Source: Nephrocerus scutellatus (Eukaryota > Arthropoda > Insecta > Diptera > Pipunculidae). Taken from it: a DNA stretch of 64,000 nucleotides. The notes under the pieces are model-generated. The model was not told where the DNA came from. It saw nothing but the letters and a program-made list of their open reading frames with translations, and did no database searches. Positions 21,269-57,625 of the stretch are shown here, one piece after another; within the stretch, counting starts at the first letter, position 1, and the number at the start of each line of letters is the position of its first letter. The position numbers and the translations under genes are program-made. The stretch spans positions 60,173,016 to 60,237,015 of the forward strand of contig OX352763.1 in assembly GCA_947095585.1 (NCBI GenBank). The letters are read 5' to 3'.

Positions 21269-21271
21269 TGT

Positions 21272-28586: not shown

Positions 28587-28590
28587 CCAT
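28535..28590 (+). repeat. (CCA)n microsatellite
   Basis: Nearly pure CCA/ACC triplets, about 18 copies, at the boundary of the gypsy-derived region and LINE B. Translations give poly-Pro, poly-Thr or poly-His depending on the frame. The minus strand gives poly-Gly. None is taken as coding. Confidence 0.9.
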
Positions 28591-29460
28591 GCTGCATACG
28601 TCAAGACATCAGGACGTACAGAGACTGTATAAACCCAGTCATACCGACCACCTGGAATCCCGCCACTGTTCGTTCAGCCTCTAATAGTATAGACTATGAT
28701 ACAGTCTCTGCAGCAGTCTCCTCAAGCAAGGTTAACAGGGTCCTTGGTACACATCCTATAAATCGGATAAACCCGGACAACCCTGGCACAACTTCGGTCG
28801 GGTTGGTGCCATATACTTTAGAGCTATAAAGCTCGCATTTTCCGTGGCACCAACGATCTCTGCCCAAATTGAAACCTCGGCCCCTTTCAAAAAACGGATG
28901 TGGACGTTGCAGATCTGTGGTCCATCCCTGTTGGCGCGGCCTCATTTCTTGGCCTGCCAACATAACTCGACGACTAAGCACCACCTTTAGTTCATCTAAT
29001 TAGTATAGGAACTTTCATTTTCTATCTGCTTTGCTTGCCATAAGCCATTGCCTATAAATCGGATAAACCCGGACAACCCTGGCACAACTTCGGTCGGGTT
29101 GGTGCCATATACTTTAGAGCTATAAAGCTCGCATTTTCCGTGGCACCAACGATCTCTGCCCAAATTGAAACCTCGGCCCCTTTCAAAAAACGGATGTGGA
29201 CGTTGCAGATCTGTGGTCCATCCCTGTTGGCGCGGCCTCATTTCTTGGCCTGCCAACATAACTCGACGACTAAGCACCACCTTTAGTTCATCTAATTAGT
29301 ATAGGAACTTTCATTTTCTATCTGCTTTGCTTGCCATAAGCCTTTTGTTAATTGAAGCACAATACGAAATTAAATAGTTTTCTTTGTACTCCGAATGATA
29401 GTTGAATGTTTGGAAGGTTTCATCTTGATCTCGTTTCAGGCCTGGAGTTGCTACAACCAC
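28586..29460 (+). mobile_element. LINE B copy b1, 3' end with tandemly duplicated 3' UTR
   Basis: This copy starts inside the C-terminal coding region (CIRQDIRTYRDCINPVIPTTW), reads to a stop near 28829, then enters the 3' UTR. A 296-bp block starting CCTATAAATCGG occurs twice in tandem (28755-29050 and 29051-29345); a third copy is in b2 at 31778. The copy ends at GGAGTTGCTACAACC, the start of the CAA-type tail of this LINE. The next copy begins directly. Confidence 0.85.
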
Positions 29461-29964
29461 AACACCAACACCTTTCCACGACGATTGGTTCTACCACCGA
29501 AAGGACCCCAATACCTATCAAGGCATTGGGCCAAAGATCGTCAACACAACAACAGGTTTGAGATTGGATCACCTGGATCCACTTCTTACATTTTCTTTAT
29601 TTTACTTTGCAAGCATTCCTATTTTTTCCTGCTTTCAGAGTGGGCCTCCCGGCATGCCTACTCTGCATATTACTAATTAGAGCCGGGATCGAGTCGAACC
29701 CAGGTCCCAGGACCTGGTAATGCTCGGTCTGCGACTGTCAGATCCGGAAATGTCAAGTCTCTGTGCGTTGCATCTGCGGCGATGCTCAGGGCTACACAGT
29801 GCCAACGATTATAACATCAGTTTCGTTGGCACATGCTGCTCCCAAGGAACTCCACAACAACCCCCCCCCCCCCACACCATTCTATCTCTACCACCACCCC
29901 TCTGCACTAACAATGCACCGACCCCCCGCCACAAATTCAACACAGCCAGCACATAGGCCATTGA

Positions 29965-30715
29965 GTTAATTCTTTCAAGATCCTTCAATGGAACTGTAAT
30001 GGCCTGCGAAACAAATTAAGAGAGATCACCCACTATATGTTTCGCAATAACATCTTAATTGCTGCTGTGCAGGAGACCAAAATTCCCAACTCATGCTCAT
30101 TGACATTCTTTGACGGCTATCAAATCATTCGACACGTCAGATCCGACAGAGGCGGCGGACTCGCTTTTATTCTTCACTAGAATGTATCATACAAATACAT
30201 CTGCCAGCAACCCTCCCCTGATCCTCATCTTGAGGCAATGAGTATTTCAGTTAACACTGGATATTTCGAGTTATTACTCACCAATATTTACATACCCCCG
30301 TAAACAGCACAGTAAATGGTTATCAACCATACTGCACCTTCTCCAGGGTGAAAACAAAATTGTAATCGGGGACACCCCCTTTGGTTCTCCGCTCTTCCTG
30401 AGAACAACCGTGAAAACTGCATTGTGGACATATTAAAAGAAACTGACTTTGTCACCTTGAATGAAGAAGCACCAGCGCTTAGCTCTGATCACATCCTCAT
30501 TGTGATCACATTGGATAGACCAGACAACTTTGTCACATCCGAACAGCGAACCTTCATAAACCACAACAAAGCCAATTGGCAAGGTTTCGCTGATTTCGTC
30601 GATACAAAATTACACCAGTTGCCTTATCTACTGAACGCTATATCTGGTGAGAAGGCCTTCTGTGACATTGTAGTTCGTGCCGCCAAAAGATTCATTCCCA
30701 CCGGAAGAATCTAAA
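29965..30715 (+). pseudogene. LINE B copy b2 endonuclease and linker
   Basis: In broken frames: LQWNCNGLRNKLREITHYM with the metal-binding region, VQETKIPNSC, RSDRGGGLAFIL, then a stop at 30178. Further blocks include ALSSDHILIVITL near 30475 with the catalytic SDH motif. The frame 30424-30714 continues past the endonuclease into the linker. Several stops and shifts make it inactive. Confidence 0.75.
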
Positions 30716-31049
30716 AGGTCATTCCATCCTTTCCGCCGGAAGCCCTCCAGCTTGCCGAGCGTCGCGACCAACTAAGAGTTACGGATCCTGCTGACCCTCG
30801 AGTTACTCAGCTAACCAAGGACATATAAAAACTAGTTGCCGATCACCGCGATCCAAGTGGCTGAGTCATCTTGAGAACTTCACGCTAGGATCCAAAAAGC
30901 TCTGGTCAACGGTCAAAGGGTTTCTGGGAAATCCCAATTTCAATTTGTCCAAGCCTTTCGACAAGGTTGACCACTCTACTCTCTTACAGGACATACTGAA
31001 TTTCATTATCCCCGACTCAATCAAAATGTTCCTGTAAGCTTACATAAAT

Positions 31050-31851
31050 GCAGGAGCGCATATGTGGAATTCAGATATTCCTGCTCAAAGCATCGAAAAC
31101 TTAAGATGGGAGTCCCAAAAGGAGGGGTCCTCTCCCCCATCTTATTTAATCTCTATGTTTCGATGCTCCCTACTTCCCCTTCTGATGTTAAACTGATCAC
31201 TTACGCTGATGATTGCTCTGTTGCTGCTTACCTTCTGTAGCCACGCCAAAAATATTTCCAGTAAAGTGATTAGTCGGAATAGGGTTCTAAGAGCCCTAGC
31301 CGGAGAGTAATGGCAAAGAAGTCTTTGTAACGACGTATAAAGCTATTGGCCGCTCAATTATTGACTACGCCGCCCCCAACTGGACGTCATTTTTAAGTCA
31401 CACTCAATGGAATAATATCCAATACATGCAAAATACAGCCCTTCGCATCGCAACTGGTTGCCACTCTATAACCAACCCTGATCATCTTCATGACGAAACG
31501 TCCATGCTCCCCGTCAGGAAACACAATGAACTACTGTCAAAGCAGTTCTTGTTAGCCTGCCAAAACCCCGCACACCCAGTTCACGACATCACTGTCAGTG
31601 AGATGCCTCCATGCTGCATACGTCAAGACATCAGGACGTACAGAGACTGTATAAACCCAGTCATACCGACCACCTGGAATCCCGCCACTGTTCGTTCAGC
31701 CTCTAATAGTATAGACTATGATACAGTCTCTGCAGCAGTCTCCTCAAGCAAGGTTAACAGGGTCCTTGGTACACATCCTATAAATCGGATAAACCCGGAC
31801 AACCCTGGCACAACTTCGGTCGGGTTGGTGCCATATACTTTAGAGCTATAA
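31050..31851 (+). pseudogene. LINE B copy b2 RT remnant and C-terminal domain
   Basis: The RT segment has MGVPKGGVLSPILFNLYVSML and YADDCSVAA with an intact catalytic box near 31204. After a deletion the thumb reads NRVLRAL with breaks, and frame 31426-31851 (141 aa) has NTALRIATGCHSIT, LPVRKHNELLSKQFLLACQN, CIRQDIRTYRDCINPV and TWNPATVRSASNSI. The C-terminal 80 codons are identical to copy b1. Confidence 0.85.
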
Positions 31852-32178
31852 AGCTCGCATTTTCCGTGGCACCAACGATCTCTGCCCAAATTGAAACCTC
31901 GGCCCCTTTCAAAAAACGGATGTGGACGTTGCAGATCTGTGGTCCATCCCTGTTGGCGCGGCCTCATTTCTTGGCCTGCCAACATAACTCGACGACTAAG
32001 CACCACCTTTAGTTCATCTAATTAGTATAGGAACTTTTATTTTCTATCTGCTTTGCTTGCTATAAGCCTTTTGTCAATTGAAGCACAATACGAAATTAAA
32101 TAGTTTTCTTTGTACTCCGAATGATAGTTTAATGTTTGGAAGGTTTCATCTTGATCTCGTTTCAGGCCTGGAGTTGCT

Positions 32179-32270
32179 ACAACCACAACACCAACATCAA
32201 CACCAACACCAACACCAACACCAACACAAACACAAACACCAACAACAACCACAACAACAACACCTTTCCA
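32179..32270 (+). repeat. CAA/CAACAC microsatellite tail of LINE B
   Basis: This is an expanded version of the CAA-type tail of LINE B, which is short at 38890-38918. Minus-strand Val/Gly-rich translations of it are artefacts of the repeat. Confidence 0.85.
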
Positions 32271-32780
32271 CGACGATGCACCGAAAGGACCCCAATGCCT
32301 ATTAAGGCATTGGACCTGGATCCACTTCTTACATTTTCTTTATTTTACTTTGCAAGCATTCCTATTTTTTCCTGCTTTCAGAGTGGGCCTCCCGGCATGC
32401 CTACTCTGCATATTACTAATTAGAGCCGGGATCGAGTCGAACCCAGGTCCCAGGACCTGGTAATGCTCGGTCTGCGACTGTCAGATCCGGAAATGTGAAG
32501 CCTCTGTGCGTTGCAACACCTGAGTCTCGCCTCCCACCAACATGGCTTTAGGAAAAATCGCAGCACTACTACCGCTCTAACGGAGCTGACGTCCCACATT
32601 GCGGACGGTCTTAACCACCGTCGCCCGCACTGGCGCACTGCTTTCGTGGCACTCGAACTGTCCAAGGCTTTCGACACGGTTGACCTCCCTACTCTCCTAC
32701 AGGACATACTGAATTCCACTCTCCCCGACTCCATCAAAAGGTTCCTGTCAGCCTACCTAAATGGCAGGAGCGCATATGTG

Positions 32781-33189
32781 TGTGGCGGTCCATGCATACC
32801 GTCACAATGCAAGTTGTGGTGGCGCTAATTCCATACGGTCGCCAGGCAAGTTGTTGTTGCGTTCGCTCTAAACATTTTGGCTGTCGCTCGCCATAAGACA
32901 AAGAATAGCGGACAGCCAAAGAAAATTGTTGTTGCGGTCGTGCCGAACTTTTTGGGCTGAAGCATATTCGATAGGAAAAAAGTCAGCCGTAACAAGTTAG
33001 ACCGAGAACGCATACGTAATAGGAAATCGCATAAGAAAAACTCGTATTCAACGTTGACAAAGAATCGAAATCGACATTTTTTATTATTGTAAAGTAGTAT
33101 TATAGAAAGTGGTGTTAGCAATAAAATTGAATTTAAAATTATTTATTATTATAAAAAGGCAGTGTTTTTTATTGGTGAACGAACACCAA
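32781..33189 (+). repeat. 5' LTR of the gypsy element
   Basis: This is 409 bp. Compared with the 3' LTR it has an extra block near 32805-32840 and scattered single differences. The primer site follows at 33192 with TGGTGACCCCGACGTAC. Confidence 0.95.
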
Positions 33190-33244
33190 AGTGGTGACCC
33201 CGACGTACACCGTTTCGCAATTTTTATAATCTTTCTTAACTAAA

Positions 33245-34136
33245 ATGCCGGACGAGAAAGATTTGAAAGCTTCAAATAGCCGAGACTCGTCCAACATGCT
33301 CGACGCAGAAATAGCCGCGGGTTCATACGCACGCCTGCAAATACCGGCTTTCATTGAGACAGACATAAGCAGCTATTTTTATTTAATAGACTTCTACTTC
33401 CGGGCAAGCGGCATTTCTCGAGACCATCGCAAGTTCGACACAATCTGCTCACAAATACCACCTGCTCGCGTCACTGAGCTCCGGCCAATTATTGACGCAG
33501 CCCCCAGTACAGGTAAATACGATTATATTCGCGCAAAATTGCAAGACTACTTCGCCGACAGCAAGCAAAAGCGACTTCTTCGCATCATGCACGTCATGCC
33601 GCTTGGTGATAAGAAGCCAAGCCAGCTCTTTCATGAAATGGTCCAAGTTTCCGACGGCATTTTAAGCGAGCAAGTGGTAATCGAAGCAAGTGGTAATCGA
33701 CTTATGGATGTCACGCCTACCCTCAGCAGTCCAAACCGCCATCTGCAAAGGCTCGCCAATTGAAAAAACACAACTAGCAGACACCATTGTAGAAAACATC
33801 GAACTGAAACAAATTAACGCTAGCGCTTTACCTCGTCACAACCACGCTGTAGAAGAGTCATACTCTCAAAACCCTCAGCAGTCGTCTGATGCAGTTAGCT
33901 TAGTAGCAGAACTCTCCAAATTACTGACAAAACAAAAACAACAGGCCCAACATCGCCGTCAAACACAACATCAATCAGATCCCCAACGTAAGTACAATCA
34001 GCGCAGCCGCGAAGCTTCAGTTGAACAATTCCCGCATTGTTGGTATCACCGTTCATTCGGCAACAAGGCAACAAACTGTCGCCAGCCATGCACCTTTAAT
34101 AGAGTCGCAACTGCTTCGTACAATACAATAGAACAA
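33245..34136 (+). pseudogene. Gypsy gag with a 16-bp tandem duplication
   Basis: The frame 33245-33763 begins with MPDEKDL and has a capsid core: YFYLIDFYFRASGI, KFDTICSQIP, then RLLRIMHVMPLGDKKPSQLF. A 16-base tandem duplication (33667-33698) shifts the frame. The remaining part continues in frame 33690-34136 with ICKGSPIEKTQLADTIVENI, a Gln-rich tail and a knuckle-like CWYHRSFGNKATNC. The shift makes this gag inactive. Confidence 0.85.
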
Positions 34137-34224
34137 TGACTTCCTACGTCGGGCTATGATAGCGAACATCATCAATCTATCAATCTCGAGCTATCATAGC
34201 CAGACTTTGTGTTCATGATCAAAG

Positions 34225-35285
34225 AACACATAAACATTATTTGATTGATACGGGGGCCGAAGTTTCTTGTATCCCGCCTTCAACATCTTTAAAACAACTT
34301 CATCCAACATCAACACGACTTTTCGCTGTCAACGGCTCGCCAATTAACGTTTACGGTCAAGTAACATTACAACTTGATCTTGGCCTTAACCGACAATTCA
34401 GCTGGAAATTTATCGTAGCAAAGGTTTCTTCGCCTATCATTGGTGCGGACTTTTTACGGCATCATGACCTATTGGTGGACTTGAAAAGATCACGACTTGT
34501 GGACTCCCGAACTCAGGTACGTTCAAAACCTCTTTTTGCGATTACAAGCCATGAACCAGCACCCTGTCTAGCCCTCGTTAGACCATTTGCAGACTTGATC
34601 GACAAATACCCCAATATTACTCAGCTCGCACTACCAGGAGCGACGACGAACTCCAAAGCGATACACTTCATCGAAACTAACGGTCCACCATGTTACGCAC
34701 GAGCTCGTCGTCTACCACCAGACAAGTTAAAAGCTGCAAAAAACGAATTTGAATCGCTTATGCGAGCTGGAATTTGCCGTCCATCAAAATCCAAGTGGTC
34801 AAGTCCCCTTCAATGGTTAGAAAACCAGACAGATCGTGGCGGCCTTGCGGGGATTACAGAGCACTAAACGCAATCACCTTACCAGATAGATACCCACTTC
34901 CGTACCTACACGATTTTGCGAACATCTTCAATGGAAAGACAATTTTCTCGAAAATCGACCTACAAAAGGCATTCCATCAAGTGCCAATCAACCCTGACGA
35001 TATTGCCAAAACGGCTATAATAACACCTTTCGGCTTGTATGAATTCACGCACATGACATTCGGATTACGAAACGCTGCCCAAACCTTCCAGCGTTTGATA
35101 CATGAAGTGCTGCATGGGTGCGAATTCGCCTTTCCTTACATGGACGACATATGCGTTGCGTCGACAAATATCCAGGAACACCGTAAACACCTGAAGGAGA
35201 TACTTTGCAGACTAGCCCATCATAACTTGGCAATAAAATTGTGAAATTGCGCCTTCGGAAAAAAGGAAATTGAATTTCTAGGCCA
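34225..35285 (+). pseudogene. Gypsy protease and reverse transcriptase
   Basis: The protease has LIDTGAEVSCIPP and IIGADFLRHHDLLVD. The frame runs into the RT N-terminus (YARARRLPPDKLKAAKNEFE, GICRPSKSKWSSP), shifts near 34810 and continues in 34774-35244: CGDYRALNAITLPDRYPLPY, FGLRNAAQTFQRLIHEV and catalytic YMDD near 35140. A stop at 35242 is followed by the thumb (EIEFLGHRITKEG). The active sites are intact. The two breaks disable the protein. Confidence 0.9.
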
Positions 35286-35289
35286 CCGA

Positions 35290-35960
35290 ATAACTAAAGA
35301 AGGAACCTCTCCTCTACCTTCAAGAGTCGAAGCCATTCAGCGAATAAAACGACCGCAAACCATAAAGGAGCTAACGAGTTTTATTGCCACTATAAACTTC
35401 TATCGCAAGTTCATCCCCCACGCCGCCGAAACACAAATACCACTTCTCGCAATAGCACCAGGTAACAAGAAAAACGACAAAACCTCTCTGCAGTGGAACG
35501 ATTCGCAAATTACAGCCTTTAATAAATGCCGGCAGCAAGAGCAGTACAGCTTTCGCATCCTAAGCCAAACGTCGAACTAAGCTTAACCACGGACGCTTCC
35601 AACCTGGCGGCCGGGGCAGTCATAAATCAGTTGGTCGACGGCGTGGCAGAGCCTCTGGGATACTTCTCAAAAAAGTTCTCCACCACGCAACAACGTTACT
35701 CGACATACGATCGCGAACTCACCGCAATCTACCTAGCAGTACGGCCCTGCAGGGATCTCCTGGAAGGACGGAAATTCTATATTAAAACGGATCATAAGCC
35801 ACTTATTTTCGCCTTCAAACAGCGCCCAGAAAAATCATCGCCAAGACAAATCAACTACATATCCTTCATAAGTGAGTACACAATAGACATCCGATAAATA
35901 AAAGGAGATGATAACCACGCAGCAGATTTATTTTCTCGCATCTATGTCATCAACAACCAC
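35290..35960 (+). pseudogene. Gypsy RT thumb/connection and RNase H
   Basis: The connection reads ELTSFIATINFYRKFIPHAA (about 35370-35440), then a shift near 35525 leads to RNase H in frame 35526-35897: LTTDASNLAAGAVINQ, YFSKKFSTTQQRYSTYDREL, IKTDHKPLIFAF. A stop at 35897 is followed by the last block (DNHAADLFSRI). Confidence 0.85.
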
Positions 35961-35966
35961 GAAGAC

Positions 35967-37086
35967 TTGTATGCAAAACTAGCAAAAGCACAAGAAACAG
36001 ATGAAGAACTCCAACAGTATATTCGAGGTGACAAAACAAATTCACTGCAATTGACATTGTTTAACTTTCCACACATAGAAAACCCAATTTATTGCGATGT
36101 CTCTCATGAGCGAGTTCGTCCATTTATTACAAAAACGCTACGCAAGATCTTCTTCGCTTCAACACACAATCTGTCCCATCCAGGCCGACGAGCTTCAGCA
36201 CGCCTCATGTCCGAACGGTTTGTCTGGCCCAATATGCAAAAAGATTGTGCAAATTTCGCAAAGGAGTGCATACCATGTCAAAAATGTAAAGTACAACAAC
36301 ACACTTAAACCGAACTTCAACGCTACCGGGCACCAGATGAGAGATTCGCAAGCATCAACATCGACATCGTAGGACCTTTTCCTCCTTCAGAGGGGCATCG
36401 CTACCTGTTAACGATAATAGATCGCTTCATCGATTTTTACAGAACTCTGCAAACTGATGGGAACGAACCAGACAATGACCACGTCCTATCACCCGCAGTC
36501 AAATGGTATAGTCGAGCGCTTCCATCGAACCCTTAAGGCAGCAATCAATTGCAACGGTTCAACTAGCTGGGTAAAACGCTTACCCCTCATCCTTCTTGGA
36601 TTACGATCAACCTTTAAAGAGGATATCGGCGCAACGCCAGCAGGATTAGTGTACGGAACTCAACTTCGCCTGCCTGGCGACTTGTTAGCATCGTCTTTAA
36701 CAAATCGTTCCCAGGGGGAGTACGCAAAAGCATTGTAGCAAATGATGCAACAAACCACACCGTATCAAACAGCATGGCATTCACAACCGAGACCTTTAGT
36801 CCCGAAAGACCTAAATTCGGCAACCCACGTTTTTGTACGCAACGACTCAGTGAAGGCGACAATCGTTCCACCATATGAAGGACCCTTTGAGATTGTAAAA
36901 AGAGGAACCAAGTTCTACACCGTCAAGATTAGAGGAAGTAGAAAAAACATATCACTGGATCGATTAAAGCCAGCTTACATAGAAAAAGCCCAAGATGATT
37001 TGAAAAAACCACCACAACAGATTAGAAACCAGACTCTTCGCACACGTTCAGGCAGACAAATAGTCGCCCCAAAGCGCTACAATTAA
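35967..37086 (+). pseudogene. Gypsy integrase with internal deletion
   Basis: The zinc module has HNLSHPGRRASARLM and CIPCQKC (HX3HX~30CX2C type). The core begins with INIDIVGPFPPSEGHRYLLTIIDRF, with the first catalytic Asp, then is deleted straight to IDFYRTL and TNQTMTTSYHPQSNGIVERFHR, where the catalytic Glu lies. The second Asp region is missing. The C-terminal frame 36742-37086 has VPPYEGPFEIVKRG and the end RSGRQIVAPKRYN. Integrase cannot work. Confidence 0.85.
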
Positions 37087-37118
37087 AAATTCTCGAGTCT
37101 GCTTGGGGGGGGGGGCTA

Positions 37119-37500
37119 TGTGGCGGTCCATGCATACCGTTCCAAACGGTCGCCAGGCAAGTTGTTGTTGCGTTCGCTCCAAACATTTTGGCTGTCGCTC
37201 GCCATAAGACAAAGAATAGCGGACAGCCAAAGAAAATTGTTGTTGCGGTCGTGCCGAACTTTTTGGGCTGAAGCATATTCGATAGGAAAAAAGTCAGTCG
37301 TAAGAAGTTAGACCGAGAACGCATACGTAATAGGAAATCGCATAAGAAAAACTAGTATTCAACGTTGACAAAGAATCGAAGTCGACATTTTTTATTATTG
37401 TAAAGTAGTATTATAGAAAGTGGTGTTAGCAATAAAATTGAATTTAAAATTATTTATTATTATAAAAAGGCAGTGTTTTTTATTGGTGAACGAACACCAA
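37119..37500 (+). repeat. 3' LTR of the gypsy element
   Basis: This is 382 bp, preceded by a G-run (37105-37115) that is probably the polypurine tract. Its right border is exact, because LINE B sequence resumes at 37501. Confidence 0.95.
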
Positions 37501-37505
37501 ATGTG

Positions 37506-38463
37506 GAATTCAGAAATTCCTGCTCAAAGCATCGGAAACTTAAGATGGGAGTCCCACAAGGAGGGGTCCTCTCCCTCATCTTATTTAATCTCTATGTCTC
37601 GATGCTTCCCACTCCCCCTACTGGCGTTAAACTGATCACTTACGCTGATGATTGCTCTGTTGCTGCCTCCGGTGCAGATGTAAACGAGGTCACACTTAGG
37701 ATAAACTCCTACCTGACAGAGCTATCTGAATTTTTCAAGAAAAGGAAACTCCACCTCGCTTCCCAAAAATCATCTGCTACGCTGTTCACCTCTTGGACTA
37801 AAGAAGTCAAGCTCGCACTTGACATTCGTATCAACAACGAAACTATCCCTACAAGCAATAACCAAAATTTTAGGAGTCATATTCGACAACCTCCTTACCT
37901 TCTGTAGGCACGCAAAAAATATTTGCAGTAAAGTGAACAGTCGTAATAGGGTTCTTAGAGCCCTTACCGAAACCGCATGGGGAAAGGACAAAGAAGTCCT
38001 TAGGACGACGTATAAAGCTATTGGCCGCTCAATCTTTAATTACGCCGCCCCCATCTGGACGTCATTTTTAAGTGACACTCAATGGCATAATATCCAGTCC
38101 AGACAAAACACAGCCCTTCGCATCGCAACTGGGTGCCACTCCATTACCAATCCTGATCATCATCATGGCGAAACGTCCTTTCTCCCCGTCAGGCAACACA
38201 ATGAAATGTTGTCAAAGCAATTCTTGCTAGCCTGCCACAACCCCAGACACCCAGTTCACGACAACACTGTCAGTGAGATGCCTTTACGCTGCATACGTCA
38301 AGACATCAGGACGTACAGAGACTGTATAAACCCAGCCATACCGGCCACCTGGAATCCCGCCACTGTCCGTTCAGCCTTAAATAGTATACACTATAATACA
38401 GTCTCTGCAGCAATCTCTTCAAGTAAGGTTAATAGGGTCCTTGGTACACATCCCCCCCTTTAA
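37506..38463 (+). pseudogene. LINE B copy b3 RT second half and C-terminal domain
   Basis: The frame 37473-37907 carries the RT palm with YADDCSVAASGADVNE, FFKKRKLHLASQKSSATLF and then a shift near 37850. The frame 37819-38463 continues with ITKILGVIFDNLLTF, WGKDKEVLRTTYKAIGRSIF, NYAAPIWTSFLSD and the C-terminal domain. The catalytic residues are intact. One frame shift and the gypsy insertion disable the gene. It is the best preserved LINE B 3' half in the window. Confidence 0.85.
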
Positions 38464-39149: not shown

Positions 39150-39246
39150 CACAGAAGTCCCACGCCCTGATTGAATGCCTATGGTTTGCTGATAGTTCGG
39201 TGATACTCCGTAGTTTTGTATATTAGGGCTTGCACTTACTAAGTTT
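39150..39246 (-). CDS. Rbcn-3A: Rabconnectin-3A (DmX/DMXL) internal exon, third in the window
   Basis: A 97-bp exon on the minus strand, preceded by a TTTCTTGCAG acceptor and followed by a GTAAGA donor. It begins with one base completing a codon, which matches the two-base end of the 45765-46032 exon across a 6.5 kb intron, and then reads 32 codons without stop. It ends GIQSGRGTSV, which fits the DMXL sequence just before the last WD40 repeats (SGRG.SVV then LKHK). The next exon (ending phase 0) is not seen to the left in this window. The gene product assembles the V-ATPase and acts on endolysosomal membranes. Confidence 0.8.
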
Positions 39247-39552
39247 CTGCAAGAAATATTTTCGTTAATATAATTAGAGCACCAACGATACGACTACTTC
39301 TGATACGATTGGTATGCATGAATTGTGAGCGCTCTCTATAACTTACGTGTGTTGGTACCAATAGGAAAATGACAGGCCAAAATGAATACGTCGTCAACTA
39401 CATCCGTATGCATTCACTTGGTAGGCGATGTAAACTCACGGAATACCATAACAAAAAATTCAGCTCTTTAAACTCACTTTATCGGATGGTCAGTTATATG
39501 ATTATGACAACCTACAGATTCTGATCGTCGAACCAAACAAATAAAACAAACC

Positions 39553-40480
39553 ATAAAAATTAAAATGTTTCTTGTAAATTCTCAAATCAGTGATACACAT
39601 GTGTCAACGTTTGAATAAGATTTTATTAGTTTTAAAAAAATTATATAGGAACCCCTCGGCCCTGGGGTCCGATAAATTCCAAATTTTTACAAAATTGTTG
39701 TCCATCAGAGATACACATATGTATAAAATTTGAAGAAAATCGGGTACATTTTTAGAAAAAATTGTATGGGAGCCCCTCGACACCGGGGCCCGATCACTTT
39801 CAAATTTTTACCAAAAGTGTTGTCAATCGGATACACATTTCTATAAAATTTGAAGAAAATCGGATACTTTTTTGAAAAATTTGTATGGGTTCCCCCGACC
39901 CCAGGACCCGATCACTTTAAATTTAAAAAAAAAGTGTTGTCCATCGGATATATATATGCGTAAAAAATTTGCATTAAATCGGGTAAATTTTGTAAAATAT
40001 TTGTATGGGAGCCCCCCGACCCCGAGGCCTGATGGGCTCTAATTTTAATAGAAAATCAGTCAGGACAAGGTTTATACGAAAAGAAAAATTAGAAAAGTTG
40101 CCCGGAAAATTTTAGAAAAAACTTAAAGTGTTTTTACATGACCATAACTCACGATTCGAACAGTATACATTTTTTGCCGATATAAGTTTCGATTCTATAG
40201 TTTTCTGGGTGGATGAGGTGGTTTAAACAAACAATTATTTTTATGATTTATTTGTGGCTTTATTTTGTTTGTTTACGGCGGAATCTTGAGATTAATTTTT
40301 AACCCACTTCATGAAGCCTGATTTTAGTCAAACTTTGCATACATGTGTTTATCCAATGACAACACTTTCAATTCGAATTTGGAAAGTATCGGACCCCAGG
40401 GCCAGGGGGCTCCTATATAAATTTAAGGTATTGGGCCCAATTAATTTCGAACAGTTCTTCTCGTTCTTCTCAGGAAATTC
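39553..40480. mobile_element. Monomer-family repeat, two arms in opposite orientation (copy 4)
   Basis: The left arm (39553-40080) is in reverse orientation. It starts with the reversed tail CCATAAAAATTAAAATG and contains about four reversed monomers (ATACACATGTG, TTTGAAGAAAATCGGG, GAGCCCCCCGACC). The right arm (about 40255-40480) begins with a head-like GCGGAATCTTGAGATTAATT and AACCCACTTC, and carries one forward monomer. Between them is ~170 bp with GATTCTATAGTTTTC, a block repeated near 44808. Confidence 0.7.
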
Positions 40481-40770
40481 TTCTCAAAATTTTATTTTGA
40501 TAAAATATAAAATTACTTAAAAACTGAAGCAAGAAATAGTTTAACTGGTTATTAAATTATTATTATTTTTTATCATTAAAAAAGTAAAACAATTACAAAT
40601 TTAAATGCAAAAAAAATGAATTTTTGCTAAATTATTATCCTTATTAATTATTATTAAAAAAAAAAGATGAGCGGGTAAACTCTACGCGCGGTTGAAGTGA
40701 CACGTAGTTGACGTCGTGACCGATATTACGATTAAATTAAAAAGTAAAAAATGGCCCACATACAAAATTT

Positions 40771-41085
40771 CACACAAATCGGTTGAGAAATGGCTTAGTT
40801 CCCGGAATTCCAGTTCCTCAAGATGATATCTTAAAATTTCGATAGGAAAAAGTCTTAATATCACACAAATCGCTTAAGAAATGGTTTAGATCCCAAAATT
40901 CTAGATCGTATTGGAAAATTTTCATTAGAACAAGTCGTATAGTCGCATCACTTCTGCATCCAAATGTTTTCAGTTACACATATGAAATCTCACATCTTCA
41001 TCAAAACGATTTTAGTTACAAATTCGAAATTTAACATCCGCATCAAAATGATTTCAGTTATCCCTAGTCGCGCCATGATTTGGAG
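40771..41085 (+). repeat. Two short tandem repeats (91-bp and 42-bp periods)
   Basis: CACACAAATCG(G/C)TT(G/A)AGAAATGG occurs at 40771 and 40862 (period 91). CATC(C/A)AAA(A/T) blocks with TT(T/C)AGTTA occur at 40957, 40999 and 41041 (period 42). They are non-coding, lie in the Rbcn-3A intron and are not found elsewhere in the window. Confidence 0.6.
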
Positions 41086-41685
41086 TTCACTCAGTTGGTT
41101 GAAGGGTAGAAATCGAACAGGTGAAACCGCAAAACTTACAAATATCAATTTTCTCACCCAACTCGTCGAAAAGCCAACTAGATATTCCGATATAACTGGT
41201 CAATCACCTTACCATTTAGATTTATTTCTAACATCTATGCCAGATAAATATTTAATTGATTTATCTGCACCATTAGGACTTTCCGACCACGCTCTGGTAA
41301 AAGCCAAATTTTCAATTTACCTAGCACTTGTGGAGACAAATCCTAAAAGGCTTCTCTGGCAATTCAAAAATTCTAACTGGGAGCTTCTGAACCAAGTTAT
41401 AGCTCATACGACTGGTCAACCTACCTTTTCAACAATAATGCTGATATAGCTTCACAACTTATCTTGTCAACCATGTTTCTAGGAATGGAAAAATCCATTC
41501 CTTCATCCTTTAAGTATAGTAGTATTCGTAAGAATAAGTGGTTAAATGAAAAATACAAAGCAGCAGTAGCTAGTAAAAAAGGAGCACATTAGGGCTATGT
41601 TAATTACACTTCCGAAGAAAACCAGGTTAAGTTTCAAATGACCAATGTTGCCTACCGAGCAATGCAACAATCTCATAATATAAAG
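41080..41685 (+). pseudogene. LINE A-related endonuclease C-terminal fragment
   Basis: In frame 40964-41449 the sequence NFLTQLVEKPTRYSDIT, HLDLFLTSMPDKYLI and LGLSDHALVKAKFS matches the end of a LINE endonuclease domain with the catalytic SDH motif. Compare LTQLVNEPTRIPDIA and LDLFLTS in LINE A at 55890-55980. The linker continues in broken frames to about 41685. It is clearly diverged from LINE A proper and lies in the Rbcn-3A intron. Confidence 0.7.
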
Positions 41686-41689
41686 AGCT

Positions 41690-43515
41690 CAGAAAATATG
41701 AAAAAACAGTTCACCGGCGAAAGAAAGCAGCCTGGGAGAAGAATCTCGTCCGTGAACTGGAACAGTAAAGAGAGCAAGGACCGCACCAGGCGCAGAAGTT
41801 CTACCAAAGAGTCCGCGGTATGACGCAATATACACCGCGTTGCACATACTGCAAGGACAAAGAGGGTAATCTGATCGCCGATCTTAAAGGCATCTTAGAG
41901 CGATGGGAAGAGCACTTCCATGAGTTGCTAAATGGCCAGCTAACTGAGGAATTGGAGGCTCCTCCAATGACCGATGATCATACTGCCGCCACCAAGCATA
42001 GACGAAGTTAGCAGAGCGATAAATCGGCTCAAAAATAATAAGGCCCCGGGATCTGATGGGATCCCAGCGGAACTGATAAAAATAGGAGGCCCCACATTAC
42101 ACCAAGCAATTCTTGAAGTAATAGTGCAAGTATGGGAAGAAGAAGTTATGCCAGAAGACTGGCGAAGGTGCATCCTGTGCCCCATACATAAGAAGGGAGA
42201 TATCACAAAATGCAGCAATTATCGTGGTATAACGTTGTTGAGTACCGCGTATAAGATTTTCTCCTCTATCCTTTAAGACAGGATAGCCCCATACGCTAAA
42301 GTCATCATTGGTCCAAACCAGTGTGGCTTCATACCAGGCAAATCAACAACTGATCAGATTTACACCCTAAGGCAGGTGATGGAAAAATGTCTAGAGTTTC
42401 AAAACTCACTACACCATCTTTTTATAGACTTTAAAGCCGCCTATAATAGCATAGCCAAAGTAGAACTTTATAAAGCCATGAGAGAATTCGGCATCCCAAA
42501 TAAACTGACACGACTATGTAGGTTGACCATGACCAATGTTATAAGCCAAGTAAAAATATCCGGATCACTATCAAGCCCATTCAACATCTATAACGGGCTC
42601 CGACAAGGGGATGGACTGGCCTGCGTCCTCTTCCACCTGGCATTGGAGAAAGTGATCCGAGACTCTAACGTAACAGCGAGAGGAACAATCCTCTATAAGT
42701 CCATTCAGACGATATTGACATCGTTGGTAGAAACCAAAGAGCTGTACAGGAAGCTTTCATCCAGAAAGAGCAGGCGGCACGAAATCTAATATAAATAAGA
42801 GCAAAACAAAGTACATGGTGGCCACGTCTGCGAGTAGAAGATCCAACATTGGTACCTCAATTCAAATAGTGAAGCGCGAATTTGAAGTAGTGCAATCCTT
42901 TAACTATCTCGGGTCAACTGTAGAAGCCGATAACAGCATGGAACCAGAAATACGCGCACGGTTGCTTAAAGCCAATAAAGCCTACTATAGGCTGTCAAGA
43001 CTTTTCAAATCCAGGAACTTAACCATAACATCCAAGCTGCTGATATATAAGACAATGTTCATACCAGTACTTACATATGGATCCGAGAGTTGGGTGCTTA
43101 GCAAAAAGCATTCTGACCACTTAGCCGCGTTTGAGAGAAAAGTCTTACGGAGAATTGTTGCCCCCGTATGTGAGGAAGGACGATTCTGGAGACTCTGTAA
43201 TGATGAGATCTACGAGCAAGCGTTACCGCGATGTCGACATCGTGAAGAAAATTAAGCTCGGTAGGCTCCGGTGGGCAGGACACCTAGCTCGCATGAGCGA
43301 AGATGATCCTGCTCGGGAAGTCCTTTGCGGTAGGATTTATGTAACACGACAGCGAGTCCGGCCAAGGCTACGCTGGAAGGATGGCGTAGACCAGGACGCC
43401 CAGAGTTTAGGGATGCCAAACTGGATGACATCGGCACAAAATCGGGACCGGTGGATAGACTTTTTGCAGGAGGACAGGACCGGACCCCGGTTCTAGAGCC
43501 AAATATGATGATGAT
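41690..43515 (+). mobile_element. RTE-like LINE, longest copy
   Basis: The most complete copy of this LINE in the window. It covers the linker (41820-42011, TYCKDKEGNLIADLKGILERW), RT N-terminal region (42025-42276, NNKAPGSDGIPAELIK, CILCPIHKKGDITKC, NYRGITLLSTAYKI), palm (42376-42789) with FIDFKAAYNSIAKVELYKAM and GLRQGDGLA, and the C-terminus (42815-43496) with SASRRSN, LTYGSESWVLSKKHS and RLRWAGHLARMSED. A deletion removes the catalytic ADD near 42715. It ends in a GATGATGAT tail at 43506-43515. Its 5' endonuclease is missing. Confidence 0.85.
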
Positions 43516-44719
43516 ATTAACTTCACGTGCCCGTGTGTTTGTTTGTTTGTCGTGGAATCTTGCGATAAATTTTGAACCCACTTCCCAATGTCCGATTTCA
43601 TTAAAACTTTGCACACATGCATATCTCTCTCTGATGACAACACTTCCTATTAAAATTTTAAAATTTAAAAAAAAAATTAACCCAATTTTCTTCAAATTTT
43701 ATATGCATATATCCTATATACCACAGTTCTTTTAAAAATTTTGGAGACCTCGGTCTCCGGGTTGTGAGGCCCATAAAATTTTTTTAAAAAAAATCCATCT
43801 CCGATGGACAACATTTTTTGTAAAATCTTTGGAGACCCCGGGCCTCGGGGTCGTGGGGCCAAATAAAATTTTTTAAAAAATTAACCCGATTTTCATCAAA
43901 TTTTATACAGATGAATATCTTTGATGGATAACACTTTTGTACAAATCTTAAAGACAACGGGCCTCGGGGTCCCATACAAATTTTAAAAAAATAACCCTAT
44001 TTTCTTCAAATTTTATACACATGTGTATCTCCGATGTACAAAACTTATTGTAACATTTTTGGAGTGAACGAGCCCTGAGGCCTGAAGGGTGCCCATATAA
44101 TTTATTTAAAAATTAGCCCAGTTTTTTTCAAATTTTAAACACATGTGTATTTGTATGGACAAAACTTTTTGTAAAATATTTGGAGTGAACGGGCCCTGAG
44201 GACCGAGAGGTGCCCACATAAATATTTTAAAAATTAGCCTGATTTTCTTCAAATTTTAAACACCTGGGTATCTCGGATGGACAAAACTTTTTGTAGAATT
44301 TTTGGAGTGAACGGGCCCTCAGGCCCAGGGGTTTGAATCGGGCTTTAGGAAGTGGGTTGCCCATATACATTTTTTAAAAATTAACCCGAGATACACACGT
44401 ATATAAAATTTAAAAAAAATCGGATTAATTTTTTTAACAAAAATTTTGGGACCCAATGGCCCAATTTTTACAAAAGTGTTGTCCATCAGAGATACACATG
44501 TGTATAAAATTTGAAAAAAATCGAGTAAAATTTTGTAAAATATTTGTATGAGAGCCCACCGACCCCGTGGCCCGAGGGACCTCAAATTTTAATAGAAAGT
44601 GTTGTCTCCGGAAATACACATGTGTGCAAAATATCAATAAAATCAGGCTTTGGGAAGTGGGTTAAAAATTTATCGCAAGATTCCACGACAAACGTGCCAC
44701 GGGCAAGTGAAGTTAATAT
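43514..44719. mobile_element. Foldback-like element with ~75-bp inverted ends and tandem monomers (copy 5)
   Basis: The left end ATATTAACTTCACGTGCCCG is repeated in inverted form at the right end (44719 reading left), and the match continues through GGAATCTTGCGATAAATTTT and AACCCACTTCCC for about 75 bases. The left arm has about five forward monomers (CTCCGATGGACAA-type blocks near 43797, 43916, 44027, 44148 and 44270). The right arm has two or three reversed ones. It begins exactly at the tail of the RTE-like LINE. Confidence 0.8.
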
Positions 44720-45034
44720 AGATAATTTAATTAAACTGATTTTATTCAAATTTTACACGTATGTGTAAGAGAATTTACATCAAAATTTTACTACCGATAG
44801 TAGTGTGGATTCTATAGTTTTCGGTGTCGCTAAGGTGAATAGTGATGCTAAGACAGCTTTATAGGTATAGGGTCGACAGCAGAATGTTTAGAATGGTACT
44901 CTGTGAGCGGCTTAGTTTGGGGGTGAGGACATTCTATTTAAAATTGGAGAAGGTAGATTAGTAAACGTAAAATAGGCCGTGGCAATATAAAATTGACATC
45001 TGAATTTTGTAACATATCGTAGAGCTTATCTTTA

Positions 45035-45615
45035 TCTATATATACATGTGTATCTGCGATGGAGAACACTTTTTGTGAACATTTTGAAGACCTCTGGGCC
45101 TCGGGGTCGTGAGACCCCATACAATTTTTTTAAAAATATTAAGCCGATTTTCTTCAAATTACACGTCTGTATCTCCGATGGACATCTTTCTGTAAATCGA
45201 ACGGGCCCTGAGGCCCGAGGAAGCCAATACATTTTTTTAAAACTAGCCCGATTTCTTTAAATTTTAAACACATATGTATCTCCAATGGACAAAACTTTTT
45301 GTAAAATTTTTGGAGTGACCGGGCCTTGAGGCCCATATAAAATTTTTAACAATCAGCCCGATTTTCTTCAAATTTTTAACACATGTGTATCTCCCAAAAA
45401 AAAACAACACTTCCTATTGAAATTTGGAAGTAATCAGGCCCCAAGGTAGGGGGTTCCCATACAATTTTTTAACGCTTGTGTATCTCCGGTGACAACAGTT
45501 TTTGTGATAGAGGGGCTCTAATATTATTTCTTTCCAAATTAACCCGGTTTTAAATTTGCACACATATGTATCTCCTTTTAGAGCATTTACATGAAAAAAT
45601 TTAATTTTTATGAGT
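45035..45615 (+). mobile_element. Monomer-family repeat (copy 6)
   Basis: About five forward monomers with CATGTGTATCTGCGATGGA, GGGCCTCGGGGTCGTGA and GATTTTCTTCAAATT. It ends in the family tail TTTAATTTTTATGAGTTG near 45597-45617. It lies in the Rbcn-3A intron close to the 45765 exon. The head is missing. Confidence 0.75.
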
Positions 45616-45764
45616 TGTTTTTTATTACACGTAATGGTATCAGACGTAGTCGCGTCATTTTGCGAATATCCTTAGTGTAATCTAATCTATACAGTACATA
45701 TAAACTTATTTCGTTGCATTGAGATAAGTAATCATTAGCTACACTTGTAACAGTTCTAACTTAC

Positions 45765-46032
45765 CTGTCAGTCGCAGTTTGAATTACAAGAAATGCTGTT
45801 GCTGGTAGTGTATCTATATCCTTCGACAGGTTTAATATATCATATTCACATTCATCTTCGGACCAATTAGGTGATTCTAGAAGAAGAGATATATCCATTT
45901 CCTGTATCTCTCGGGGAATAGCAATAGCGACAAGTCCAGGTGATACATTGTTAACACAGAACGCAAATATGGATTCTTGATCTTTGTGAATAATACGTAT
46001 TGGTTCATAATGCATATTTGCATGGTCAATAG
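45765..46032 (-). CDS. Rbcn-3A: Rabconnectin-3A (DmX/DMXL) internal exon, second in the window
   Basis: A 268-bp minus-strand exon with acceptor TTTCAATTAAAG (AG at 46034-46033) and donor GTAAGTTAG. It starts with two bases completing a Thr codon shared with the previous exon. The open frame reads through EPIRIIHKDQESIFAFCVN, EIQEMDISLLLESPNWSEDE and ATAFLVIQTATD. These blocks match DMXL/Rabconnectin-3A proteins, including the QEMD region and the acidic stretch. The identification is by family memory and was not tested by search. The frame is intact and its composition differs from the surrounding AT-rich repeats. Confidence 0.85.
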
Positions 46033-46128
46033 CTTTAATTGAAATAAATACAAATAAATAAAACAAAACAAAACAAAATTAAAACATTATAACTAGATAG
46101 TTTATGAAGAAGAAGTTAAGAAACTTAC

Positions 46129-46380
46129 TTAAATCAATATCGGAGTTACCGACGTAATCTGGTTTCGAGTAAGATCCTATGTCGAAATGTACTGACGCTT
46201 TTTTGCCAAAAATTGCTCTTACAAATACCTCTTGAACTTGCTCTTGCCGAACAAGATAGTTCCATAAACGCCGAGCTGGACCAGCTGATGAACTGGCTAT
46301 AAATGGGGTATTCTGTTTTTCAATAATTGACCTATACTTATAAATTGCTGGACCTTTTATCTCATTCTCGACATGGCAGC
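46129..46380 (-). CDS. Rbcn-3A: Rabconnectin-3A (DmX/DMXL) internal exon, first in the window
   Basis: A 252-bp minus-strand exon with acceptor AATCCTTAG before 46380 and donor GTAAGT at 46128. It begins with two bases of a split codon and then reads CHVENEIKGPAIYKYRSII, ASSSAGPARRLWNYLVRQ and EQVQEVFVRAIF without stop. The GPARRLW-YLVRQ-VQE-F block is characteristic of DMXL proteins. Its one-base end and the two-base start of the next exon fit together (96-base intron 46033-46128). Upstream exons are outside the window or beyond the transposons to the right. Confidence 0.85.
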
Positions 46381-46456
46381 CTAAGGATTACATCAAAAAA
46401 ATTATTTTAAGGTACCCTTTTTTAATTAAAAAAAAATGACATATCAATCATATTGT

Positions 46457-46985
46457 TACAAAATTTAGGATTACTAAGAGGTTCGTAATTGATTTTGCAG
46501 ATAAAAACACAACTCAAGTTTGTTTATTCACAAATTTCAACTTTAATTCACAACTTGCATGAGTTAACAAATTCGCACTCGTGATTCACACAAATAACAC
46601 ACTTATTCACAAATATTTACATATAACACTGCTGTATATACTCGCAAGTACTCTGGTACAAATCCAAATCATAACTAACTAAATGCGACAAAGTATAGGG
46701 TACAGCAACAGTTTCGAGAATGTTCTATACTTTTCTTTTCTATTCTGTTAAATTTAAATTATCTAGCTTCTAGCAAATACGAGAATATACTGATATATAT
46801 ATATATAAGACTCAACACATAATTTTATATACAAATACAATATTACTCAGCCTAAGCATATGCAATGGTTTTTGGTAATTTCTTGATTCTAATACAATTA
46901 AACACAATGTTTATACTTAAATTGTGTCTACAGATGGCGCTTTAAAGTGTACTTAATCCATTACCACCCGCCCTTAATTTTGTTC
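46457..46985 (-). repeat. Probable 3' LTR of a minus-strand gypsy element
   Basis: The sequence lies directly after the integrase stop of the minus-strand gypsy remnant. It begins after a purine-rich AATTAAGGGCGGG tract (minus strand) and ends in TTTTGTAACA near 46457. It is AT-rich, with TATA-type stretches. No second LTR is available for comparison, so both ends are estimates. Confidence 0.45.
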
Positions 46986-49571: not shown

Positions 49572-49790
49572 AAAAAAAACAACCCATAAAAATTAAAATT
49601 GTTCGTGTAATTCTCTAATTGATACACAATGTGCAAAGTTTGAATAAAATCGGATAACATTTCATAAAACCAATTTGGGAGCCCCCTTATCCTGATCACT
49701 TCAAAATTTTTACAAAAAGTAAAAGTACATGTGGAGAAACACATGTGTATAAAATTTGAAGAAAATCGAGTAAATTTTGTAAAATCGGCT
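49572..49790 (-). mobile_element. Monomer-family repeat (copy 7), reversed
   Basis: It starts with the reversed tail AACAACCCATAAAAATT and contains about two reversed monomers, ending at the border of an RTE-like LINE. It is inserted into the LINE A linker. Confidence 0.75.
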
Positions 49791-50878
49791 CAAAATTAAT
49801 AAGGCCCCGGGATCTGATGGGATCCCAGCGGAACGTATAAAAATAGTAGGCCCCACATTACACAAGCAATTCTTGAAGTAATAGTGCAAGTATGGGAAGA
49901 AGAAATTATGCCAGAAGACTGGCGAAGAGGCATCCTGTGCCCCAAACATAAGAAGGGAGATATCACAAAATGCAGCAATTATCGTGGTATAACGTTGTTG
50001 AGTACGCTTATAAGATTATCTCCCGTATCATTCAAGACAGGATAGCCCCATACGCTAAAGTCATCATTGGTCCATACCAGTGTTGCTTCAACCCAGGCAA
50101 ATCAACAACTGATCAGATTTACACCCTAAGGCAGGTGATGGAAAAATGTCTAGAGTTTCAAAACTCACTACACCATCTTTTTATAGACTTTAAAGCCACC
50201 TATGATAGCATAGCCAGAGTAGAACTTTATAAAGCCATGAGAGAATTCGGCATCCCAAATAAACTGACACGACTATGTAGGTTGACCATGACCAATGTTA
50301 TAAGCCAAGTAAAAATATCCGGATCACTATCAAGCCCATTCAACATCTATAACGGGCTCCGACAAGTGGATGGACTGGCCTGCGTCCTCTTCAACCCGGC
50401 GTTGGAGAAAGTGATCCGAGACTCTGACGTAACATCGAGAGGAACAATCCTCTATAAGTCCATTCAGATACTGGCTTACGCAGACGATATTGACATTGTT
50501 GGTAGAAACCAAAGAGCTGTACAGGAAGCTTTCATCCAGATAGAGCAGGCGGCACGAAATATGGGGCTGCACATAAATAAGAGCAAAACAAAAGTACATG
50601 GTGGCCACGTCTGCGAGTAGAAGATCCAATATTGGTCCCTCAATTCAAATAATAATATTGGAGCGCGAATTTGAAGTGGTGCACAATCCTTTAACTATCT
50701 CGGGTCAACTATAGCAGCCGATAAACAACAGCATGGAACCAGAAATACGCGCACGGTTGCTTACAGCCAACAAAGCCTACTATAGGCTGTCAAGACTCTT
50801 CAAATCCAGGAACTTAAGCATAACATCCAAGCTGCTGATATATAAAAGACAATGATCAATCATACCAGTACTTGTACT
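49785..50878 (+). mobile_element. RTE-like LINE fragment
   Basis: It covers RT N-terminus to thumb. The frame 49970-50620 has IISRIIQDRIAPYAKVIIGP, FIDFKATYDSIARVELYKAM, GLRQVDGLA and an intact ADD box (LAYADDIDIVGRN) near 50478. GLRQVD differs from the usual GLRQGD, which probably disables it. The thumb continues in broken frames to about 50878. Confidence 0.85.
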
Positions 50879-51324
50879 TACATATGGATTTTGCGGGAGG
50901 CAATGGTTTTTAGCCATTGGGAGCGACAGAAATGTAATTTCACCAGAAGAATTATTTCTCGGTTTTGTATCGGACGGCCGTGGGATTTGATCCACACATC
51001 ATGCGATTACCGGGCGGAAGTATTACTATTGTGCTACTGTCGCACATGCATTGTACTGAGTACTTTGCCTATACGTTGTGCAGCGTAGTACTACGGTGCT
51101 TTGGGTACTTTTAGCGAATGATCAGCAGTATGCTTTAAGGCGGTACTAATGATATAGTAGTTTATTAATTCTGGTTTATATAGAATTTTAGCGGATGATA
51201 AGCAGTATGCTTTTAGGCGGTAAATAATTATGTAGACATTTATTGATATAGTCTATATAGATATGATGTGTAACGTAGGTGATTTAATCCAAAATAATAG
51301 TTGGATTAAACCAACCTCGCACAC
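50879..51324. other. Unassigned segment with 77-bp duplication and hairpin
   Basis: A block AGCG(A/G)ATGAT(C/A)AGCAGTATGCTTT occurs at 51113 and 51190 (period 77). A perfect 10-bp hairpin TTTAATCCAA / TTGGATTAAA lies at 51283-51310, next to where LINE A resumes. No coding sequence. It may be the remainder of an unrecognised insertion into LINE A. Confidence 0.4.
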
Positions 51325-52680
51325 TGTTTGCTGCACATTTTGCACCTAGATCTACGCTTCCAAACTGTGCATTGTTGCCGCCTGTACCTCTGAGTTTAGA
51401 AAACTCTATGGGACAGATTTACATTCGTACTCGTGTACTCCCTGCACTTGCTAGAGTTTTAAACGATCTCAACACTCAGAAATCCCCATGCAGCCCATAC
51501 CTATAATAGGTGAACCGTCGTCTCCATTTCGTACCGACCCATAGCACTTACATCCATTCTTTCCAAGGTCATGGAATCAATTCAATTTTCAGCTCACGAT
51601 ATATCTTTAAACCAACGAAATTCCTAATGACCGCTACGGATTTCGTGGGCAACATTCTACTAATGATTTGATGGTATATCTCACCGGAACATTATTTACA
51701 TCAATTTGGTGATAGCAAAGATGTTGTACTCGATATTTTCAAGGCATCGACAGAGTTTGGCATCAAGCTCTTTTGTCAAAAATGCGTGCTTATGGAGTCG
51801 ATGAAAAACTGCATCTGGATTGGTAGCTATCTTTTGGACCGCTCAGTTCAAGTTGTATTGGACGGTTTCAAGTCTAAAGTACATAACATAAATGCTGGCG
51901 CTCCACAGGTCTCTGTTTTATCCCCGACAATTTTTCTCATTTTTAAATTCTCTATATTAACTTCGCGTGCCCGTGGCTGGCTGGCTGGTGGACAGAATCT
52001 TGTGACCAATTTTTAACACACTTCCTAAAGTCAGATTTTATTCAAACTTTGCACACATGCGTATTTCCCATACTTTCGGCACCTCGGGCCTCGGGGTCAG
52101 GGGCTCCCATACAATTTTTTTAAAAAATTTAACAAAAACAATCTCTAACAAAAATTTTAAAAAATTTACCCGATTTTATTCAAAGTGCACGTTGTGTACT
52201 TCCGATTAGAGAATTTTCACGAAAAATTCTAATTTTTATGGGTTGTTTTTTTGTTAATGATCTCTTGTCCATTACTTCTAATCCAATTCACTCTTTTGCT
52301 GAAGACAGCACTCTCAGCTTCTCATATAAGTTTGAGGACCGTCCCTCCACTTCTCATGTGGAACTCAAACAACCGCGTATGTTAAGCACGTTAAATTCTG
52401 ACCTGGACAGCGAAGTAAAAAACCAAATGCTGTCTCATATCGTCTAAGCGAATCCTAAATCTAACGCCATTATCCATGAATGGCACTTGTATCGAGGAAA
52501 CTGAAGACTCGCAATTCTCGGTATGTGCCTTAACGACAAGTTTCGTTTGAATGACCACATATTTACCGTCGCCAAAAATGCTGCGAAATGTTTAGGTTTT
52601 CTAACCCGGTGCAAGAAATATTTTACTTCCCCGATCTGGCTATTATTTACAAGGCTTTTACCTCCTACCTGAGCGTCGAA
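51325..52680 (+). mobile_element. LINE A copy, 3' half, with dead catalytic site
   Basis: Resumes the LINE A copy of 48440-49571 with the RT in broken frames: MRAYGVDEKLHLDW-like block, YLLDRSVQVVLDGFKS, SVLSPTIFLIF. It is interrupted by a repeat (51946-52253) and continues with LLSITSNPIHSFAEDSTLSFS, where the catalytic FADD is FAED (52301). The thumb and the KNAAKCLGFLTRCKKYF block follow to about 52680. The C-terminus is missing. Confidence 0.85.
51946..52253 (+). mobile_element. Monomer-family repeat (copy 8), complete short element
   Basis: A 308-bp insertion in the LINE A RT with both ends defined by comparison with the uninterrupted copies at 8735 and 57290. Head AATTCTCTATATTAACTTCG, about two monomers, then a hairpin AGAATTTT-CACG-AAAATTCT-like near 52210-52230 and the tail TTTTTATGGGTTG. 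No target duplication is visible: the insertion sits between A and T, as in Helitrons. Confidence 0.8.
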
Positions 52681-56239: not shown

Positions 56240-57625
56240 TTGAGCTGTAAAGAGGCTTCTAGGATTAGAGAGGTATGCTTTCGGTTTTACAAAGCAAACC
56301 CTTCCGAGGAAAACCGAAAAAAGTTTAAACGAGCAAGAAATGATTGCAATGCCCATCTTCGTCGAGTCAAATTCGCCTACGACCGAAAATTAAGGCAAAA
56401 AATACTACAATGTCCCAAAGGTAGTAAAAATGTTTGGTCTTTCGTGAAAAGAATCAAAAATTCAGCCTCGTCGTCGATTCCAACGCTCATTTATAATGAC
56501 ATTCCAGTTGTCAGCTCTATGGACAAGGCCAATCTGTTTGCTGCGCATTTCGCAGCTAGCTCTACGCTTCCAGATTGTGCATTGCCGCCTCCTGCACCTC
56601 AGAGTATTGAACACTCTATGGAACAGATATTTTTTCGTACTCGTGCAGTTGCTAGAGTTTTAAATGATCTCAACACACACAAATCCGCTGGTCCATATGG
56701 TATTTCTCCATTAGTTCTGAAGAGGTGTTCTTCCAAGCTGGCATTACCATTGCGTAAGCTTTTCCATCTATCCTATTCTTCTGGACTCTTCCCGAGAAGT
56801 TGGAAAACAGCATTTGTCCAGCCCATACCCAAAAAAGGCGAACCGTCGTCTTCTTCTTCGTACCGACCCATAACACTTACATCCATTCTTTCCAAGGTCA
56901 TGGAAACGATAATCAATTGTCAGCTTAAGAAATATCTTGAAACCAACGTAATCCTTAGTGACCGGCAGTATGGGTTTCGTGGGCAACGTTCTACTGGTGA
57001 TTTGATGGTTTTTCTCACCGAACAGTGGAACCGATCTTTGCATCATTTTGAAGAAAGCAAAGCTGTTGCACTCGATATTTCAAAGGCATTTGACAGAGTT
57101 TGGCATGAAGCTCTTTTGTCTAAAATGCGTGCTTATGGTGTCGATGATAAACTGCTTGAATGGATTAGAAGCTATCTTTTGGACCGCTCAATTCAAGTTG
57201 TTTTAGACGGTTTCAAATCTGAAATACACCACATAAATGCTGGCGTTTCCCAGGGCTCAGTTCTGTCCCCGACACTCTTTCTCAATTTTATTAATGATAT
57301 CTTATCTGTGACTTCTAATCCAATTCACTCTTTCGCTGACGACAGCACTCTCTGCTTCTCATATAAGTTTGAGGAACGTCCCTCCACCTCGGATGTGGAA
57401 CTAAAACAACTTCGTATGTTAAGCACGTTAAATTCTGACCTTGACAGCATAATACAATGGGGAGAAATCAATCGAGTAGAATTTAACGCTTCCAAAACCC
57501 AATGCTGTCTCCTGTCGTTCAAGCGAATCCTAAACCCCATGCCATTATCCATGGATGGCACTTGTATCGAAGAAACTGAAAATCTCGCAATTCTCGGTAT
57601 GTGCCTTAACGACAAGCTTCGTTAG
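56240..57625 (+). pseudogene. LINE A reverse transcriptase, 461-codon frame
   Basis: The longest uninterrupted LINE frame in the window. Visible RT motifs: KKGEPSSSSSYRPITLTSIL (about residue 200), RQYGFRGQRSTGDLMVFL, VALDISKAFDRVWHEALLS (about 280), GVSQGSVLSPTLFLNFIND (about 345), catalytic FADDSTLCFSY (about 370), and FNASKTQCCLLSFKRIL. The catalytic Asps are intact. A stop at 57625 truncates the protein before the C-terminal domain, which resumes at 57794. Confidence 0.9.

Follow-up and report, generated by a model that had tools for sequence, protein, structure and literature searches.

Three consecutive exons on the minus strand of the analysed window (the whole stretch of 64,000 nucleotides) very probably belong to the host's own normal DmX gene (Rbcn-3A, Rabconnectin-3-alpha), whose introns appear to be inflated by transposons. 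The exons, designated A to C in Table 1, would encode about 205 residues located immediately ahead of the C-terminal WD40 region and would be joined by splicing into a very long mRNA, the transposon insertions having presumably enlarged the introns while leaving exons and splice sites intact. In the intron between exons B and C, the insert would be a foldback-like element that contains a reverse-transcriptase fragment, and the flanks would harbor elements of both the LTR and the non-LTR type. We infer that the gene is complete beyond the window, expressed, present as a single normal copy and working like its relatives. Nothing found marks this copy as unusual, and the gene itself is well known.

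Table 1. Positions of the exons, the introns and the main repeat features of the long intron.
Feature	Position	Strand	Evidence or description
Exon A of the DmX/Rabconnectin-3A gene	46129..46380	minus	open frame, splice sites, tblastn of relatives, HMM E 1.9e-28
Intron A-B	46033..46128	minus	96 bp, 17.7% G+C
Exon B	45765..46032	minus	open frame, splice sites, tblastn, HMM E 3.2e-52
Intron B-C	39247..45764	minus	6518 bp
Exon C	39150..39246	minus	best tblastn E 1.9e-7, HMM E 0.00035
Composite repeat filling most of intron B-C	39543..45621	.	self-comparison, tandem units
Repeat-covered run with reverse-transcriptase fragment	42021..43658	plus	Pfam RVT_1 E 2.7e-9 on 42376-42789

A view on the exon borders shows that the three GT-AG-bounded segments proposed in the preliminary description are reproduced exactly, to the base, as are the short intron and the long one, for which about 6.5 kb had been given. 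The exons measure 252, 268 and 97 nt and read CHVENEIKGPAIYKYRS...NSDIDL (exon A), IDHANMHYEPIRIIHKDQESI...LVIQTATD (exon B) and NLVSASPNIQNYGVSPNYQQTIGIQSGRGTSV (exon C). Their donors, GTAAGTTT for exon A followed by GTAAGTTA and GTAAGATT, carry the hexamers GTAAGT, GTAAGT and GTAAGA for exons A, B and C, respectively, and the acceptor ends are TTAG, AAAG and GCAG, the last one belonging to exon C. The first two bases of exon A belong to a split codon (N|GC, a Gly in the relatives), and the phases agree as had been claimed, with a codon split 1+2 between A and B, another split 2+1 between B and C, and phase 0 at the end of exon C. The joined frame of 205 codons contains no stop, while the other two forward frames contain 12 and 15, and none of 20,000 random rearrangements of its bases came out free of stops. 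Thus, we see no signs of decay in the three exons, since the splice sites are unbroken and the frame is without a stop.

The assignment to the DMXL/Rabconnectin-3A family, just ahead of the C-terminal WD40 region, was likewise borne out by protein matches, tblastn, a profile search and the junctions of relatives. The members of this family carry a C-terminal WD40 propeller, N-terminal WD40 propellers and a conserved Rav1-like region, and take part in a V-ATPase assembly complex together with WDR7 and ROGDI. A protein search with the 205-residue translation matched 57 proteins at E values up to 1e-3, with significant similarity over the visible part and a best E of 2.1e-60. Six of these bear DmX-like names (P0002, P0006 and P0049, named by jgi, and P0017, P0018 and P0020 from Homalodisca vitripennis); of the remainder, one uncharacterised protein is from Timema and the others are without a name. 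When the 57 relatives were compared with the window by tblastn, all of them matched the area of exons A and B, and five (P0015, P0022, P0028, P0051 and P0053) matched exon C, with E values from 0.005 down to the best value in Table 1. A profile built from the same relatives ranked the three exons ahead of everything else among 3143 six-frame segments, the next one having an E value of 9.4; exon B shows the strongest similarity to the relatives. Other searches gave no additional assignments: no PDB chain matched the translation at E values up to 10, the window contained no Rfam match at or above the gathering score, and no relative was present in the viral contigs scanned. Two Pfam matches of the translation to a nucleotidyltransferase domain (E 0.021 and 0.093) both stay below the curated cut-offs and are regarded as chance.

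Further evidence comes from insect proteins which read through the same exon junctions. The proteins P0201 from Diploptera punctata and P0243 from Ephemera danica contain the parts A, B and C as one protein, with 52% identity over 180 and 54% over 179 aligned columns, respectively; starting from position 30 or 32 in the window translation, these alignments include the larger part of A together with the complete B and C. P0197 from Aedes albopictus spans the junction from the end of exon B through all of C with 65% identity over 78 columns. Of the seven relatives aligned over tens of residues, this mosquito protein shows the greatest identity, albeit over a short stretch, which is a weak indication of a fly; taken together, the relatives speak for an arthropod host, probably an insect. 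All three are annotated as hypothetical proteins, were retrieved with a DMXL C-terminus as query, and run on into WD40 sequence past exon C, P0197 without a break, and the phase-0 end of exon C coincides with the start of the WD40 part in the mosquito relative. Because the insect relatives read across the same borders, exons B and C are adjacent in the protein despite the 6.5 kb separating them. At least 277 residues separate the end of the visible piece from the C-terminus, as counted on P0197, which may itself be incomplete. The segment therefore resembles the DmX/Rbcn-3A proteins of insects and DMXL1/DMXL2 of vertebrates in the sequence of exons A to C, the order of the parts and the junction to the WD40 region, but differs from them in that only 205 residues are visible, the neighbouring exons lying outside the window or missing, and in its large, transposon-filled introns.

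The divergence of the copy was assessed with 19 sequences containing near-complete A and B parts, 16 of which were used for analysing constraint after P0006, P0007 and P0020 had been removed as near-duplicates. The window sequence differs at five of 65 columns that are conserved to at least 90% among the others, with L replaced by I three times in addition to one T>I and one S>T exchange, while the 15 relatives differ at 0 to 8 of these columns. In a tree of 19 sequences, it is placed beside P0002/P0006 with a support of 0.744 and has the longest single-tip branch (0.287), the stem of a leafhopper pair being longer (0.346); by mean distance to all other sequences, it comes third among the 19. 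This may indicate a mildly fast-evolving copy, and branch length and conserved columns taken together fit an ordinary, somewhat diverged gene, apparently under constraint and without sign of decay. That the exons are a pseudogene fragment too young to have accumulated stops or frameshifts appears very improbable. Such a fragment would agree with the visibility of only three exons, with the T>I exchange, which falls within an ATPRE motif, and with the residue after NW in the NW-EDE motif, an S in place of the M, L, F or Y of the aligned relatives; however, the substitutions in conserved columns are mostly conservative, all splice motifs are intact, and 205 codons have stayed free of stops.

The claim that the long intron and the flanks are filled with repeats can now be given in numbers. 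Repeats that occur at least twice within the window (blastn, E values up to 1e-10) cover 58% of intron B-C and 32% of the window, but no base of the three exons. Units of about 120 bp occur near both ends of the intron (39592-40055 versus 43797-44333 and 45039-45470), and 19 of the 25 matches between the two sides of the composite repeat are inverted, while six are direct; its outer ends (39543-39604 and 45560-45621) are also inverted relative to each other, with 81% identity over 62 bp. As judged from this arrangement, the composite repeat looks like a single foldback-like element of about 6.1 kb enclosing the reverse-transcriptase fragment, although the six direct matches are ill-fitting for a simple foldback. 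Without this element, the intron would be roughly 440 bp long. Self-comparison of the window also shows copies related to the run with the reverse-transcriptase fragment at 49782-50889, 21271-22053 and 16319-16993 (minus strand), and unit stretches related to the composite repeat are found at 562-883 and 20896-21268. The dense transposon DNA around the exons might also suggest that a transposon picked up these exons from a host gene and now carries them, but we consider this extremely unlikely, since the exons have kept their introns and phases and have no second copy inside the window, and since the composite repeat sits within the intron rather than around the exons.

The remaining parts of the window contain further mobile elements. 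Pfam searches with 20 open frames chosen from 52 identified fragments of reverse transcriptase, RNase H, integrase, gag and an envelope-like protein (Baculo_F), while four of the 20 had no match at E 0.01. The stretches 32829-33194 and 37140-37506 are 98% identical and enclose several separate open frames, two of them with reverse transcriptase or RNase H domains; the region 32829-37506 is probably an LTR element, located 1.6 kb from exon C, and the similarity of its ends suggests a fairly recent insertion. The envelope-like fragment at 19764-20741 on the minus strand (Baculo_F, E 6.2e-8 on 20265-20741) presumably resembles those of insect errantiviruses. An open frame of 461 residues at 56240-57625 codes for a jockey-like reverse transcriptase, with related stretches at 8502-9640, 51491-51945 and 52249-52660; the best match of its coding part (56240-57622) is an ENA protein with 70% identity, and the matches that bear a species label (Callosobruchus beetles, Armadillidium, butterflies and moths) reach at most 49% identity among the best 120 of 362. 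In addition, a 76-bp unit is repeated 5.5 times in tandem at 22740-23160 (96% matches), and the region 28583-32515 harbors two blocks of 99% identity (28583-29049 and 31605-32071) together with a tandem 296-bp unit at 28755-29342. These blocks represent either a recent local duplication or an effect of the assembly.

No upstream exon was recognised in the 17.6 kb of the window located 5' of exon A in the orientation of the gene, where three query pieces covering about 160 residues directly before exon A gave a best E of 0.45 among the seven rows kept after removing those starting at 45700-46500. Similarly, no downstream WD40 exon was recognised in the 39.1 kb past exon C. A search with a DMXL C-terminus yielded a best E of 0.089 among the matches listed, on the plus strand at 29453-29644, and tblastn with 79 fetched C-terminal relatives (E values up to 1) returned 65 rows, 23 of which fall on exons A to C. 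Another 31 rows are scattered with a best E of 0.046 and are attributed to chance rather than to WD40 exons; the 11 further ones all derive from P0239, and those inspected are histidine-rich and of low complexity. The profile of the 79 C-terminal relatives recovered exon B weakly (E 0.15) besides two chance matches (4.4 and 6.8). With no neighbouring exon recognised on either side, one possibility is a break in the gene outside the window. Otherwise, unless an exon has escaped recognition through its shortness or divergence, the flanking introns would be large, longer than 17.6 kb on the upstream side and 39.1 kb on the downstream side. A gene continuing through very large introns is consistent with the absence of further recognisable exons in the window.

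These flanks also bear on the possibility that the three intact exons were moved or duplicated as an incomplete copy into a new location, such as a Y chromosome or another heterochromatic region, while a complete DmX gene resides elsewhere. The repeat-rich surroundings, the lack of recognised neighbouring exons in 64 kb and the somewhat long terminal branch would all agree with such an origin, which is nevertheless unlikely: the conserved columns are retained within the range of the relatives, and large transposon-filled introns are also known from normal genes in large insect genomes. Still less probable is a functional DmX copy that moved to heterochromatin, possibly the Y, and is expressed across gigantic introns, e.g., as a V-ATPase regulator of the male germline. 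A literature search, with few subscription papers among those covered, returned a paper on the coconut crab and no description of a Y-linked Rbcn-3A. The Y-linked genes kl-3 and kl-5 of Drosophila, which have gigantic introns according to PMC6508621, share the repeat-rich introns between exons with the present segment; unlike in their case, Y linkage, testis expression and megabase introns are not evident from the 64-kb sequence, and the counterpart DmX of D. melanogaster is X-linked, as stated in PMC8264551.

The reading as part of the normal DmX gene connects the segment with a known function. PMC12527914 and PMC8264551 describe DmX/Rabconnectin-3A as the large scaffold subunit; the complex it belongs to, Rabconnectin-3/metazoan RAVE, promotes the joining of V1 and Vo of the V-ATPase. 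Drosophila is reported to have one Rabconnectin-3-alpha, DmX, with mutant defects resembling those of V-ATPase mutants. By homology, a role in V-ATPase assembly may be suggested for the gene in the window. The finding is an ordinary one, consisting in the correct annotation of a conserved gene, which gene finders may split because transposon DNA separates its exons by kilobases or perhaps even tens of kilobases; it would gain significance beyond annotation only if the copy were relocated or sex-linked.
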